Assembly (NCBI GenBank): GCA_938017795.1
Contig: CALIJZ010000086.1
Coordinates: 1 to 64,000, forward strand
Reading direction: 5' to 3'
DNA: 64,000 nt
DNA from: an uncultured Bacteriovoracaceae bacterium
GTDB lineage: Bacteria; Bdellovibrionota; Bacteriovoracia; Bacteriovoracales; Bacteriovoracaceae
The translations under genes and the position numbers were made by a program. The first letter of the stretch is position 1. Each line of letters starts with the position of its first letter. Of the stretch, positions 57,141 through 64,000 are shown piece after piece. The notes below the pieces were generated by a model. It saw only the letters and a program-made list of their open reading frames with translations, was not told where the DNA came from and did no database searches.

Positions 57141-57216
57141 GCCCTCTTAGCTCAGTTGGTAGAGCAAGGGACTGAAAATCCCTGTGTCCGTGGTTCGAGC
57201 CCGCGAGAGGGCACCA
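57141..57216 (+). tRNA. tRNA-Phe (GAA)
   Basis: 76 bases with CCA encoded. Acceptor GCCCTCT pairs with AGAGGGC; D arm GCTC..GAGC; anticodon stem AGGGA/TCCCT around loop CTGAAAA, anticodon GAA at 57174-57176; T arm CGTGG TTCGAGC CCGCG. All stems pair. The integrase gene of the neighbouring element ends 23 bases after it, so the 3' part is probably the integration site and has been preserved intact. Confidence 0.97.
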
Positions 57217-57239
57217 TTTGTCTGTAAATCCCAATAGAT

Positions 57240-58588: not shown

Positions 58589-60268
58589 TTAACTCATTGA
58601 GTGATTTTCCAATTTTTCAATCCCTATAGGAGGGTGGAATTTTGGAATTTCTATCTTGTAAACCTTAGGGTGAGATCCTAGAATTTGAACCCCATCCATC
58701 GAGGTTAAATCGTTCCTTATTGAGTTCTTTCCTCTTTCGGGAGAACCTGGGAATTTCGCATAATAAGAGATGATTTCCTTCACTGTTAAGCCCTGTGGGT
58801 GTTCTAGAAGGATATCCTTAATCACTTCCTTAGATTTATCTGTGGGCTTAGATGAGATTCCTGTATGTCTGAAAATCAAGCCATCTCTAGCAAGCTTTAT
58901 TTCATCAAAGCTTTCTCGATTTCTAAACTCAGATCTTAATTTGTATTCTTGATCATTAACTTTAACTAGCTGAATAGTTCCATCTACAGCATCGGCAAAG
59001 GCACTAGATCCTCTTATTTTATGGCCAACGCTAGAATTAGATCTTTCGCTTTCATTGGTCTTTCCTTCATGACAAATTAGAAGACATGCACACTTATTAT
59101 TTCTAATTATTTCAATGATATTACCTAGACATAATTTCATGTCTCTGTGATTCATCTCATCTCCACTAAAGAATTTATAAAATGGATCAACAATACAAAG
59201 ATCATATTCCTTAATTTTTAAAATCTTATCAAGAGTCTTGGTGTTGCTAGGCTTTAAGAAATCAAGCGTTTCTGAACATATATCGAAATCAAAATTTAGA
59301 GCTTCTAGTTCAAACACATTTTGAAGTCGATCTTGTAAGGCACCTTCACTAATCTCTCCATTTAAATACAAGATCTTGAGGTTCGTATTTGTTATCGAGA
59401 AAGTTGATAAGAAATCTTGATTTTCGGAAATACTCTTTATGATATTAAGTACAAAGCCACTCTTTCCAGTTTTGGCTTTTCCTGTTAGTGCTATTGTCTC
59501 TGTTCTGTGTATTAATCCAGATATGATGGGAGAGTTCTCGACAAACTCTTGTTTCATGAAGCTACCAAAACTCCAGATTTGAGGTAGATCTGCTTGCAAG
59601 TCATTTTGATATTGATAAATTATGCTATTGACTCCATCATGACTTTGGATAATATCATTATAATCTAAGGACTTTTTCTTTTTAGATATTTCTCCCATTG
59701 GATGATGGATATAAAGTTCCTTGGTATGCTTAATAAGCTTGTCTTTAAAATCTTCTCCAAACTTAAACCCAGCTTTGCTTAGATCTTTATCAGTCCATAA
59801 ATGAATGACTTTGTTTTTAATAAACTCAATTGGAGGGACATTTAATCCACACAGAGCATGAAAGCTAGCATCAATATTCAGTGATTGCATTACTGATGCA
59901 ATTGTTTCAAAACCTTCGGCAAAGTGAATTTCATTAGATTTGGATTGCTGTAATCGAATACTTCCACCTTTTATCTTGCCATGAGTTTTCTTGTTAAGAC
60001 GAATACAATTATTCTTTCTTCCAAAATCATCTAAGTAAGTGATTTGAATACCTACTAGCTTATCATGTTCGTATGATGTGATTTGTGCTACCATGCAAGG
60101 GAGATTGTTTCTTAGCTCACTGTTGTAAGCTAGTGCATTCTCTATGCAATATAGATTCTCTGGGGATCGAATAGATCTCTTTTTGAGATATTTGTATGTA
60201 TGGTCACCCTTAAAAATTTTTTCTGATTTCTCTATGTTTTTACATAGTTCTTTAAATTTAAAGTGCAT
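58589..60268 (-). CDS. Toprim primase-RepA-like helicase
   Basis: 559 residues. A Toprim domain (about 112-185) has E118/E121 in HFAEGFETIAS and D160, D162 in LWTDKDLS. An AAA_25/RepA-type hexameric helicase follows: Walker A GKAKTGKS (263-270), ILYLNGEIS, DLCIVDPFYKF (Walker B) and CLLICHEGK. The C-terminal 100 residues look like a winged helix. With the separate CHC2 protein upstream it forms a primase-helicase that would start replication of the element. Overlaps the CHC2 gene by 11 bases. Confidence 0.88.
   Translation of the reverse strand: MHFKFKELCKNIEKSEKIFKGDHTYKYLKKRSIRSPENLYCIENALAYNSELRNNLPCMVAQITSYEHDKLVGIQITYLDDFGRKNNCIRLNKKTHGKIKGGSIRLQQSKSNEIHFAEGFETIASVMQSLNIDASFHALCGLNVPPIEFIKNKVIHLWTDKDLSKAGFKFGEDFKDKLIKHTKELYIHHPMGEISKKKKSLDYNDIIQSHDGVNSIIYQYQNDLQADLPQIWSFGSFMKQEFVENSPIISGLIHRTETIALTGKAKTGKSGFVLNIIKSISENQDFLSTFSITNTNLKILYLNGEISEGALQDRLQNVFELEALNFDFDICSETLDFLKPSNTKTLDKILKIKEYDLCIVDPFYKFFSGDEMNHRDMKLCLGNIIEIIRNNKCACLLICHEGKTNESERSNSSVGHKIRGSSAFADAVDGTIQLVKVNDQEYKLRSEFRNRESFDEIKLARDGLIFRHTGISSKPTDKSKEVIKDILLEHPQGLTVKEIISYYAKFPGSPERGKNSIRNDLTSMDGVQILGSHPKVYKIEIPKFHPPIGIEKLENHSMS
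58592..58602. promoter_or_regulatory. palindrome ACTCATTGAGT, copy 2 (helicase 3' end)
   Basis: Identical to the sequence at the integrase start, here across the last codons of the helicase gene, 185 bases away. The 176-base gap between the two carries nothing else recognisable. Confidence 0.25.
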
Positions 60269-60491
60269 TAAATCCTCCTATTTGTATGTTGTTGTTGCGA
60301 CAAAATCTCATTAGTTCAGATTGGGAACATCCTGAATGGCAGTAGAAAAGTATCTTGTCATCGGTTAGAGAAATAGAGAGTGAAGGATTGCTGTCATCGT
60401 GACATGGACAAAAAGCGATTGCCTGATCACCTCTAGCAGAGCCTTGGGTTAATTCGATTAAGTTTTCATAGTTCTCAAATAGACTAATCAT
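60258..60491 (-). CDS. CHC2 zinc-finger protein (stand-alone primase finger)
   Basis: 77 residues. FCPCHDDSNPSLSI and LFYCHSGCSQSEL supply the CHC2 zinc ligands (C28, H31, C51, C55) used by DnaG-type primases to bind template DNA. In most phage primases this finger is fused to Toprim; here it is a separate gene overlapping the Toprim-helicase start by 11 bases and the HTH gene end by 8. Confidence 0.88.
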   Translation of the reverse strand: MISLFENYENLIELTQGSARGDQAIAFCPCHDDSNPSLSISLTDDKILFYCHSGCSQSELMRFCRNNNIQIGGFNAL

Positions 60492-60672
60492 TTTTAACCT
60501 CTCTTTTTTGACTTTCTATCCAATTGTAGATTTCGGTTTGATCAAACCTAATTGAACTTCCAAGTTTAATGTGAGGGATTTTTCGATTCAAAATCTTGCT
60601 TCTTACATTCGATTTCTTCAATTGAAGAAGTTGGCAAATTTGTTCAATTGTAATGAGTTTTAAGTCATTCAT
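60484..60672 (-). CDS. AlpA/excisionase-like HTH protein
   Basis: 62 residues, MerR-like HTH_17: LITIEQICQLLQLKKSNVRSK, then KIPHIKLGSSIRFDQTEIYNWIES (given in part), the standard excisionase/AlpA arrangement. Probably the excisionase or activator of the element. AAGGAA lies before the ATG. First gene of the four-gene operon. Confidence 0.85.
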   Translation of the reverse strand: MNDLKLITIEQICQLLQLKKSNVRSKILNRKIPHIKLGSSIRFDQTEIYNWIESQKREVKND

Positions 60673-60819: not shown

Positions 60820-61797
60820 ATGATTGACCTTCGAAACACTTTTAATCCTAAAATAAACACTCTGGAGTTAAATTTTATTCCATGGATCTTAAGCAGACTT
60901 TATACGAACGATATTTCTAAACTTTCTAAGAAAGATAGGAATAGACACCTTACTAGTACAAGAAAATTTCAGAGAGGAGTTCTTGCATTAATCAAAGGTG
61001 GAGCAATCTTACCTAGAAAAGGGAAGGAGCTTGGAACTGTTGCTGAAATTTTTAATGAAGAGAGAAAAAAATTAGAGAGTAGTAATGTGCATACTTTTAA
61101 CTATTTTTCAGAAGAAGTACTAACGCTCTATTCAAGAGTAGGTCAGCATATTAAAAATTTGGAAGCAAATGAAACTAAGGGACGAAGTAAATTTTTCATT
61201 TCTGAGATTTCACTCTTATGTTTTTTATTTTCCGAGATAAGCAGTATCGAAAAAATCAAGAGACTTAAGCTGCTATATAATAAGTTACTTAAACTTGAGG
61301 AAGGCAAAGTGTGGAAAGCAGGGTGCAGAATAACATATAGTAAGTTAAATGAGTTCTCCGCATCTAGGTTAGAAACATATGACATTAAGGAGAAGTCGGA
61401 AGTTTTGCATGAACCTCGTAGAAGATGCAAGTCAACTATTGTAAAAGAAATCATCGTTATAGCCAATAGAGATAATTCTTGTGAAGGCCAAGAAAATGAA
61501 AAAGATATTGAAAGATTAGAAAAATACCTGATGAAAGAATTGAGAGGTATGTGTTTACAGTTAAATCGAAAGTTAAAAGATAGAGAAGTTAGAGCAAAGA
61601 GTTATATTGAGATGATCTGTATGGAAGTACATGATTTACTTGTTATGTTGGCTGGCCTACATAGGGATAACTCTGTGTTGAGTAACTATATGAGAAAGGA
61701 GTCTTTTAGATCTGAAGAATCTATTAGTTATGAACTATTAGCTGACGTTAACTTAAGACTAGACTTTAACCTTCAAGTTAGAGCTAATCTTCTATAG
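60820..61797 (+). CDS. unknown element protein
   Basis: 325 residues, strongly basic (many R/K) and helical, no signal or membrane segment. RNRHLTSTRKFQRGVLALIKGG near the N terminus and a helix pair at 230-300 (RLEKYLMKELRGMCLQLNRK) suggest a nucleic-acid-binding or coiled-coil protein. I recognise no domain. Transcribed away from the replication operon; its last 14 bases overlap the convergent DUF5681-like gene. Confidence 0.6.
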   Translation: MIDLRNTFNPKINTLELNFIPWILSRLYTNDISKLSKKDRNRHLTSTRKFQRGVLALIKGGAILPRKGKELGTVAEIFNEERKKLESSNVHTFNYFSEEVLTLYSRVGQHIKNLEANETKGRSKFFISEISLLCFLFSEISSIEKIKRLKLLYNKLLKLEEGKVWKAGCRITYSKLNEFSASRLETYDIKEKSEVLHEPRRRCKSTIVKEIIVIANRDNSCEGQENEKDIERLEKYLMKELRGMCLQLNRKLKDREVRAKSYIEMICMEVHDLLVMLAGLHRDNSVLSNYMRKESFRSEESISYELLADVNLRLDFNLQVRANLL

Positions 61798-62116
61798 GAT
61801 CCAATGAGTATGCAAGTCGTATTACTTGACTAGAGTTTGAAACTTCTTCCGCTTGAGGTCTTGGTAAAAACCTTGCCATTATTTCCATTACAATTTTTCT
61901 ATCTCCTTTTTCGATAGCCTTATAAATTGTTTGCATTAAGAGGGATGCTTCGGGAGAAGTCATCATTTTCTTTGCCTCTTTGTGTGGTAGACTTATTGCT
62001 TCTATTACTATAGCGACTTCTTCTAAGCATTTTCTTCTTATATCTTTTGCAAGTGGGGAGAGTTTAGGTCTGCCTTTGCCAAATGTATTTCCTTTTTTAA
62101 ATTTAGTATCTTTCAT
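61784..62116 (-). CDS. DUF5681-like small protein
   Basis: 110 residues. The N terminus FKKGNTFGKGRPKLSPLAKD matches the DUF5681 start (FKKGxSGNPxGRPKG) found in phage and element proteins related to terminase small subunits. The helical rest has LLMQTIYKAIEKGDRKIVMEI. Could bind DNA; the AAGGAAT site before ATG is adequate. Confidence 0.7.
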   Translation of the reverse strand: MKDTKFKKGNTFGKGRPKLSPLAKDIRRKCLEEVAIVIEAISLPHKEAKKMMTSPEASLLMQTIYKAIEKGDRKIVMEIMARFLPRPQAEEVSNSSQVIRLAYSLDPIED

Positions 62117-62260: not shown

Positions 62261-64000
62261 ATGAATTTAACAAAAAAAAATCAAGTTTCTTCTCGATTGT
62301 CCGATAAATATAATGTGAAAACACTTGATGAAAAACTAAAGTCGTTACAAGAAAAACTCGATTCTTCGCATCTGAAATTGGATGAAGAATTGTTGAAAAT
62401 AAATACAAAAATGAAAATCTTATGTGCCTGTAAGTATTGTGATGCAAAAATTATTACTAGTTTAGAAGAACTCACTGATTTTCTTAATTTAAAAGGCAAT
62501 GTGCCTAAATGTGAGAGTTGCAGAGTTGATTACATAATTAAAAATAAATATCCAAACTTTAAGGATTCTCCTCCTTGGACAAATTATAAAGTAATTATTA
62601 ATAATGAATTTTGGGATAGTGAGTATGTGCGAGATGAGTATCTCAGTTGGTTTATGCTCCAAAAAAGAATCAATAACTTAGATGGTCTATACAAAATAAG
62701 TGAGAAAGAAGTGCGAAATTTTCATGGTGCTACATTACTAATAAAGTATAGTGGTTGGGTGAATTTACTTAAAGCTTGTTTTCCGGACTTTGAGTGGCAA
62801 GAGTGGAAATTTAGTAGAACGCCTTCTCACTTCTATGGAGAGAAAGAAAATATTCTGAGATATCTTAATTGGCTAGGAGACAAACTCAATTATACGAAAA
62901 ACGAACATTGGTACCAGATTTCTGTTAAAGATTTAAGGGAGAATTATGGGCATGTACTTCTGAGAAGGTATAATAGTTCTCCAGCAAGTATAATATTAGA
63001 TAACTTAACAGAGCTAAATCTAATTCCTTGGAAATTTAAATCTCCATTGATGAATTATTTTAGGTCTCTTGATAATGTTAAGAAATCTCTTTTATGGCTC
63101 TTGGAAGAAGAAGATCTTCAGATGGAAGAATTAATTAACCTCACAAATCAAAAAATAGGAAAGATGATATCTCAACAAATATTTGTTTATCATGGAAGTA
63201 TTGATGAGGTATTGAAAAAGTGTTTTCCAGAAATTGATTGGATGGCTCTTCGTAGAAAACAAAAAGAGAAACCATCGGGTTACTTTGATTGTAAAAAGAA
63301 AAGAATTGAAGCAATTTCTGATTTGGAAATTAAAATTGGGATCAAGCAACCTGAGGATTGGTACCCTTTATTTTCTTTAAAATTACTGAAACATCATCAT
63401 CTTGGACGACTAGTGAAATATGTAAGAAAAAATACTGATCTTTTGAGAGAGAAATATCCTCAATATAAATTCTTAGATTGGAAGTTTAATAAAACAGAAA
63501 ATTGTTTCTGGGATAATCCGATAAATGTTAGAGAATATCTTGAATGGCTCCAGGATAAATTTGATATAAAATCTGTAGATGATTGGCATACTGTCTCTTA
63601 TTCTGAAATTAAAGCAAATTATGGGGCAGGTTTGTTGCATCGACGTGGTACAATCCTCGATGTTGTAAAGTTTGCATATCCAGGAGTACAGATAAATGAA
63701 AAACTATTTGGCCAAACCTATACACGTCAAAAAAAATTGTATTCGATCTTATGTATTATTTTTAATGAAGTTCTAGAGTCAGGTGGAGACATAATTTACG
63801 ATGACCAGAGTGTACATGGCCTTAGATATTCCAGATCGAATAAACTCCTTGAGCTAGACATTCACATACCTTCTTTAGGTCTTGCATTTGAATATCAAGG
63901 AGCACAGCATTTCCGTCCAATCAAAATTTGGGGAGGCAAGAGAGCTCTTAGAGAAATTCAAGCAAGAGATAAAGAAAAGAATGAACTATGTTTCAAAAAC
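62261..64000 (+). CDS. zinc-ribbon, W-rich repeat, Vsr-like endonuclease protein (partial at right edge)
   Basis: Open from ATG 62261 to the window end: 580 codons without a stop. Residues 1-53 form a charged coil; C55, C57, C60 and C84, C87 (CACKYC, CESC) a zinc ribbon. Five repeats of about 70 residues begin near 116, 191, 266, 341 and 416, built as Y/F-W-L-W ... W-Y-x-I/V-S-x-x-x-(L/I)-x-x-x-Y/H-G-x-x-L/L ... YPxxxWxxWKF; the third and fifth are degenerate. From about 490 a PD-(D/E)XK fold: LELDIHIPSLGLAFEYQGAQHF (D533, E544, Q546, H550) and RDKEKNELC (K571/K573), resembling very-short-patch-repair-like nucleases. No methylase is seen nearby. Confidence 0.75.
   Translation, partial: MNLTKKNQVSSRLSDKYNVKTLDEKLKSLQEKLDSSHLKLDEELLKINTKMKILCACKYCDAKIITSLEELTDFLNLKGNVPKCESCRVDYIIKNKYPNFKDSPPWTNYKVIINNEFWDSEYVRDEYLSWFMLQKRINNLDGLYKISEKEVRNFHGATLLIKYSGWVNLLKACFPDFEWQEWKFSRTPSHFYGEKENILRYLNWLGDKLNYTKNEHWYQISVKDLRENYGHVLLRRYNSSPASIILDNLTELNLIPWKFKSPLMNYFRSLDNVKKSLLWLLEEEDLQMEELINLTNQKIGKMISQQIFVYHGSIDEVLKKCFPEIDWMALRRKQKEKPSGYFDCKKKRIEAISDLEIKIGIKQPEDWYPLFSLKLLKHHHLGRLVKYVRKNTDLLREKYPQYKFLDWKFNKTENCFWDNPINVREYLEWLQDKFDIKSVDDWHTVSYSEIKANYGAGLLHRRGTILDVVKFAYPGVQINEKLFGQTYTRQKKLYSILCIIFNEVLESGGDIIYDDQSVHGLRYSRSNKLLELDIHIPSLGLAFEYQGAQHFRPIKIWGGKRALREIQARDKEKNELCFKN
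62606..63712 (+). repeat. five tandem coding repeats of about 75 codons
   Basis: Protein repeats 1-5 in the nuclease gene; units start at about 62606, 62831, 63056, 63281 and 63506. The clearest conserved parts are Y-L-x-W-L near the start of each unit and the YP/FPxxxWxxWKF near the end. DNA identity is low, so this is an old expansion. Confidence 0.65.

Follow-up and report, generated by a model that had tools for sequence, protein, structure and literature searches.

A gene at the right-hand end of the window, i.e., the whole 64,000-nucleotide stretch of DNA that was analyzed, encodes a protein in which a Vsr/EDxHD-type nuclease domain stands between two arrays of tandem repeats, and this gene belongs to a small island inserted at a tRNA-Phe gene. 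We put the chances at about even that the product is a DNA endonuclease whose two arrays of helical modules hold the substrate around the central nuclease domain, and that the island carries it as cargo that interferes with incoming or competing mobile DNA. In the mechanism that we propose, five W-rich repeats (W-repeats) before the nuclease and four integrase-type repeats after it would clamp duplex DNA on both sides, and the Vsr-type domain would cut the DNA so held. The gene, in an operon with a partner that combines an Mrr-type nuclease and an SF2 translocase, would thereby attack competing mobile DNA such as phages, helpers, or rival islands. The features are as follows, with positions in the window unless another contig is named.

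57141 to 57216, plus strand: tRNA-Phe(gaa), the integration target (ARAGORN)
57198 to 57227, plus strand: attL, AGCCCGCGAGAGGGCACCATTTGTCTGTAA, an exact repeat of attR at contig C42:3670-3699
57240 to 58412, minus strand: integrase of the island, a tyrosine recombinase of 390 aa (PF00589, E = 2e-28; phrog_1, E = 2.5e-63)
58589 to 60268, minus strand: replication protein of the primase-helicase type (Toprim-like plus AAA_25), 559 aa (PF13481, E = 2.2e-21; phrog_2597, DNA primase, E = 7e-17)
60258 to 60491, minus strand: small CHC2 zinc-finger protein, 77 aa (PF01807, E = 3.6e-6)
60484 to 60672, minus strand: HTH_17 regulator or excisionase-like protein, 62 aa (PF12728, E = 1.4e-9)
60820 to 61797, plus strand: 325-aa protein with no recognizable family (no significant match in Pfam, NCBIfam, PHROGs, or PADLOC)
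61784 to 62116, minus strand: 110-aa protein with sub-threshold resemblance to DUF5681 (PF18932, E = 0.0038, 18.2 bits against a cut-off of 27.5)
62261 to 64000, plus strand, continuing to contig position 64707 with its stop on C42: repeat-nuclease gene, about 885 aa in full (reading frame)
62423 to 62521, plus strand: N-terminal cysteine cluster (C55, C57, C60, C84, and C87), a putative zinc ribbon (from the sequence; model confidence is low here)
62609 to 62812, plus strand: W-repeat 1 (residues 117-184)
62831 to 63037, plus strand: W-repeat 2 (residues 191-259)
63056 to 63259, plus strand: W-repeat 3 (residues 266-333), which has diverged furthest of the five and is weak alone in an independent HMM
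63281 to 63487, plus strand: W-repeat 4 (residues 341-409)
63506 to 63709, plus strand: W-repeat 5 (residues 416-483)
63719 to 64000 (residue 580), plus strand, with the end of the domain near contig position 64078: Vsr/EDxHD-type nuclease domain (residues 487-606)
Residues about 632-857, outside the window: four integrase-type repeats, following the nuclease domain
C42:279-3497, outside the window, same strand as the repeat-nuclease gene: partner gene, Mrr nuclease plus SF2 helicase, 1072 aa

The repeat-nuclease frame begins at ATG 62261 and has met no stop codon by 64000, in agreement with the 580-codon open frame of the preliminary description. The window comprises the first 64,000 bases of a 64,707-base contig (C86), and past 64000 the frame runs on uninterrupted to the contig end at 64707, reaching 815 codons in all. 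Contig C42 starts with 20 bases matching the end of C86 (three tip bases differ), and the frame carries on into it as far as a stop codon. From this overlap, the shared frame, a further integrase-type repeat unit directly past the junction, and an att site 3.6 kb farther on, we infer a single protein of about 885 residues, the join being one by sequence overlap in a draft genome. Its domains are, in order, a CxxC/CxxC N terminus, five W-rich repeats of about 75 residues, the Vsr/EDxHD-type nuclease, and lastly four repeats of the integrase type, which resemble PF14882. The N-terminal cysteines already described are spaced C57xxC60...C84xxC87, as in zinc-binding sites, with C55 as an extra. The protein does not end near the nuclease, since the second repeat array lies behind it; this array is new relative to the preliminary description, as are the partner gene and the other end of the island. 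The two array regions have basic pI values (8.9 and 9.7), and both presumably bind DNA. A full-length structure model (overall pLDDT 62) was used solely for repeat periodicity and strand order. In this model, the helix pattern of the W-repeat unit appears five times with pLDDT mostly between 75 and 94, and the repeats are thus periodic in predicted structure as well.

The W-repeat units are five in number, each spanning 68 to 69 residues at a spacing of 75 residues. With leave-one-out HMMs, every unit outscored all 1,000 of its own shuffles, and an HMM built from the repeats of other organisms alone recovered the repeat-nuclease protein at E = 7e-50 (unit 3 being weak singly), so that the five units of the preliminary description are genuine. 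The same foreign-repeat HMM gave E = 1.8e-11 with a Flammeovirga plasmid protein. A degenerate DNA pattern taken from units 2 and 5 was run on 84,980 species genomes and matched 12 stretches, of which 10 loci were true tandem repeats and 2 were chance; since the scan requires exact pattern matches, this number of loci is a lower bound. W-repeats joined to the nuclease also occur in at least three other bacteria: in a Deltaproteobacteria MAG (L038, six units), in Bacterium UASB270 (L032, at least three units, with an assembly gap upstream), and in the Flammeovirga plasmid protein, and the layout is therefore not the singular one that it had seemed to be. The Planctomycetota loci contain three or four W-repeat units, and the nuclease is absent from them. 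At a locus of Planctomycetaceae (L059:1057-2280, minus strand, G373:C162), about 190 unrelated residues are followed by three W-repeats, and a possible integrase fragment (PF14659, sub-threshold) was seen at L068:13501-13863, close to the L038 repeat-nuclease gene. Similar proteins with W-repeats and a nuclease may also be present in some eukaryotes and giant viruses.

In the searches made, the W-repeat is rare and scattered. Convincing matches were limited to the own genome among 350 genomes of its phylum, and to 1 of 195 genomes of another phylum and 1 of 294 genomes of Planctomycetota. Other genomes of the same phylum did not yield the repeat, and the sample thus offers no sister islands for the comparison that the preliminary description had proposed. 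Scans of viral contigs, with the window repeats or the complete protein as the query, yielded either no match or none that was confirmed as a relative. Genome matches L016 to L025, L040, L041, and L062 were judged to be chance, L062 being a TPR-like protein, and sub-threshold Pfam matches to PHZA_PHZB and Ribosomal_L50 were dismissed. A model of two W-repeat units (from L038, with a 21-row alignment) reached a pLDDT of 95.6 and a pTM of 0.84, each unit being compact and made of five helices. Searched against PDB and BFVD, it found nothing at E <= 0.001 (best values of 3.8 and 0.5), yet a two-unit Foldseek query may overlook a small single-unit match and only these two libraries were covered, for which reasons we do not claim a new fold. 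A PDB match to AFG3L2 was dismissed (E = 0.098). Weak but recurring similarity was found to DUF4046 (PF13255) proteins, such as those of Priestia megaterium plasmids, which, unlike the window protein, come without the nuclease; it was seen by tblastn (about 1e-4), by hhalign (probability 86%, E = 5e-6), and by HMM (E = 5e-4), in each case with few sequences. The PF13255 Pfam model itself matched neither the window protein nor L038 nor L034, and it matched nothing in the own genome; no paper on DUF4046 was found in the literature searched. DUF4046 proteins at L154:3761-4537 and L155:3758-4534, on Priestia plasmids, adjoin spore-germination (ger) genes and look like distant W-repeat kin. Save for the weak DUF4046 link, the W-repeat is a genuine family that Pfam, NCBIfam, and PADLOC do not contain.

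The nuclease signature of the preliminary description was borne out by the conservation of its motif and by phage intron-encoded kin. D533, E544, G547, Q549, H550, and D570 are invariant in all 23 related domains, and position 573 is lysine in 22 of them and arginine in one; D533, E544, H550, and D570 make up the acid-acid-xH-D set that goes with a PD-(D/E)XK-like core. The spacing of D533 and H550 parallels that of D51 and H69, the catalytic pair of Vsr, which has its counterpart in I-Bth0305I (PMC11879112). An HMM of the 23 domains matched the window protein at E = 2e-37, a value that is partly circular because the set includes that protein; independent PHROG matches were to phrog_9084 (homing endonuclease, E = 1e-9) and phrog_559 (E = 1.4e-14), two of the matched families bearing endonuclease names. 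By tblastn, the phage matches included intron-encoded (I-MsaI) and HNH-annotated proteins, and the nuclease profile found I-MsaI at E = 2e-16, although the I-MsaI record itself is annotated “function unknown.” No solved nuclease in the PDB, Vsr (1VSR) and I-Bth0305I (3R3P) included, was matched by sequence, profile, or fold. The predicted order of secondary structure (helix, three strands, helix, strand) fits a nuclease fold, at low confidence given a pLDDT of 41 to 68 in this part; with the repeats periodic as well, neither of the two refuting outcomes named in the preliminary description was observed. By motif and profile matches, the C-terminal signature belongs to the Vsr/EDxHD-type nuclease class common to phage intron-encoded proteins, and the enzyme probably cuts. 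A scan of viral contigs for the nuclease returned 80 loci, none of which had W-repeats. At four loci of the same phylum (L005, L007, L008, and L010), zinc-ribbon repeats flank the same nuclease class on both sides.

One residue departs from the motif. The window protein, L032, and one phage protein have glutamine at position 490, as against glutamate in the other 20 of the 23 domains, and since Q490 replaces the helix acid, activity could be altered. This replacement, together with the Planctomycetes proteins that have repeats and no nuclease, would suit a catalytically dead DNA-binding protein acting as a regulator or decoy. However, every other conserved catalytic-type residue is retained, and L032 has the same glutamine and keeps the rest of the motif, so that we hold such a loss of catalysis to be very unlikely. 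The full D/E/H/D/K set of the window domain also bears on whether the substrate could be RNA, with helical arrays binding RNA and a Vsr-like domain that cleaves it or merely clamps it, as in RAP and FASTK proteins. RAP domains have a Vsr-type cavity and sit behind helical or RNA-binding regions, and FASTKD4 binds RNA without cleaving it (PMC11879112); the OPR/FASTK-RAP organelle proteins likewise have a helical or RNA-binding stretch in front of their Vsr-type domain. They differ in binding RNA, in their unrelated repeat sequence, and, for FASTKD4, in the asparagine that replaces the catalytic histidine. Moreover, the kin of the window domain are DNA homing-type proteins, and the repeats C-terminal to it also occur in a recombinase and in a DNA translocase of the Type ISP-like kind. 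We consider action on RNA improbable and action on DNA by an active nuclease the better reading.

Among characterized proteins, the closest kin of the nuclease are intron-encoded phage proteins, which raises the alternative of a homing-type selfish enzyme that would cut the empty tRNA-Phe site or the site of a rival element and spread the island, or its own gene, by repair or co-infection. EDxHD enzymes join nuclease domains to extended DNA-binding modules and can contact very long sites, nearly 60 bp in I-Bth0305I (PMC3943268). The EDxHD homing-type enzymes I-Bth0305I and I-MsaI have the same nuclease motif order as the window protein and an N-terminal array of small modules, in I-MsaI zinc ribbons, whose cysteine pairs precede the nuclease in the sequence. 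Small modules joined to a Vsr-type nuclease are thus an existing design, of which the W-repeat version is new. In contrast to those enzymes, the window protein has W-repeats before the nuclease and integrase-type repeats after it, the helix glutamate is a glutamine, and the surroundings of the gene show no evident intron. W-repeat nucleases also occur off islands, since L032 is surrounded by chromosomal genes, none of them recognized as an integrase, and the family is therefore not tied to islands. For the present island, on the other hand, movement is already served by its own integrase, and we know of no homing system with a partner translocase-nuclease. Homing is, in our judgment, unlikely as the explanation here, and interference with competing DNA remains the reading that we prefer.

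The four units of the second array were detected with an HMM built without the window protein (E = 1.8e-20; score of 83, where the best shuffle reached 15), and Pfam INT_rpt (PF14882) matched one fragment of it at 25.9 bits, against a curated threshold of 26.5. The same repeat stands N-terminal of the putative recombinase domain (PF13009) in VPA1269/GmtZ proteins, which points to DNA. The partner gene starts 44 bp downstream of the repeat-nuclease gene on the same strand, and the two probably form one operon and may act together. The partner comprises Mrr_cat_2, ResIII, and Helicase_C domains (motifs D79...QVK, GTGKT, and DEAH) and then six integrase-type repeats, and over residues 17-616 it is 30 to 32% identical to Type ISP enzymes. 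Like LlaBIII and LlaGI, it has an Mrr-type nuclease and an SF2 ATPase; unlike them, it shows neither a methyltransferase nor a recognition domain, and the six repeats stand in their place. In PADLOC, the nuclease protein matched nothing and the partner matched only the nuclease-helicase part of restriction-modification models; neither protein as a whole matches a known defense system, and the pairing of the two genes was not seen elsewhere in our searches. A 678-aa protein of the same phylum (L163:1513-3546, minus strand, G098:C217) has a Vsr-type nuclease of the same class between two sets of zinc ribbons, together with three integrase-type repeats, a combination that suggests an exchange of reader modules around the nuclease. 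Their occurrence in the nuclease, the partner, the recombinase, and L163 shows that the repeats are passed among enzymes acting on DNA, in which they occupy the position expected of a recognition domain; the arrays may confer specificity. In G214 (L164:826-2520 and L165:1027-2778, minus strand), arrays of seven and of eight integrase-type repeats follow a hydrophobic N terminus, possibly an export signal.

The preliminary description had assigned the gene to a tRNA-integrated element, of which both ends have now been located. The tRNA-Phe 3′ end, searched for in the genome, has a second, partial copy at C42:3668-3688, and the longest stretch common to attL and attR is the 30 bp AGCCCGCGAGAGGGCACCATTTGTCTGTAA, attL being the end of the tRNA-Phe gene. 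The island is thereby closed at about 11.2 kb and contains the integrase, primase-helicase, CHC2, HTH_17, 325-aa, 110-aa, repeat-nuclease, and 1072-aa proteins; its GC content (0.32) is not distinct from that of the flanks (0.33). With 11.2 kb between 30-bp att repeats, tRNA insertion, an integrase, a primase-helicase, and an HTH_17 protein, it has the anatomy of a small satellite-type island (P4/PICI-like); as to packaging interference or dependence on a helper phage, its genes offer just the sub-threshold DUF5681 resemblance at 61784 to 62116. Such islands often bear anti-phage cargo (e.g., PMC10121019 and PMC11846896). A methyltransferase is absent from the island and a self-protection gene is not evident, so self-DNA would have to escape in another way: it may lack the site, cutting may depend on modified DNA, or a trigger may be needed. 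In a genome of the same genus, a primase-helicase with 35% identity (L174, G228:C46:3494-4510) perhaps marks a related island with other cargo.

The adjoining replication genes, and the tandem repeat of about 55 residues that the protein shares with VPA1269/GmtZ (PF14882 plus PF13009), would also be compatible with an accessory to the life cycle of the island, in excision, initiation of replication, or transfer, like GmtZ of the gamma-mobile-trio elements. The window protein, however, has no PF13009 match and carries its repeats C-terminal to a nuclease; an orthologue of GmtZ was rejected because the integrase domain is missing. The island genes examined included neither GmtX nor GmtY, the integrase of the island is complete, and nuclease-plus-array proteins elsewhere come without these replication genes. 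We regard island housekeeping as a rather improbable function. Among the alternatives to interference, homing ranks first in likelihood, followed by RNA action, island housekeeping, and loss of catalysis.

Taken together, the analysis defines a tandem-repeat family for which the libraries searched offer neither an annotation nor a matching fold, joined here to a nuclease class that homing enzymes use. It also shows that, on mobile DNA, repeat modules pass between nucleases, recombinases, and a translocase of the Type ISP-like kind. In a broader and more speculative reading, to which we give a small chance, W-repeats and integrase-type repeats would be two modular families of DNA readers, each unit reading a short stretch, that mobile elements mix around different cutters (Vsr-like nuclease, Mrr-helicase, or recombinase), thereby obtaining nucleases that are targeted by protein and can do without protective methylation. 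If this is true, column variability would mark the specificity residues, foremost position 36 in helix 3, the most variable column (3.67 bits). The partner without a methyltransferase raises the question of how self-DNA is spared, and if the arrays do read DNA, they would represent a protein-only targeting principle beyond zinc fingers, TAL repeats, and LAGLIDADG enzymes.
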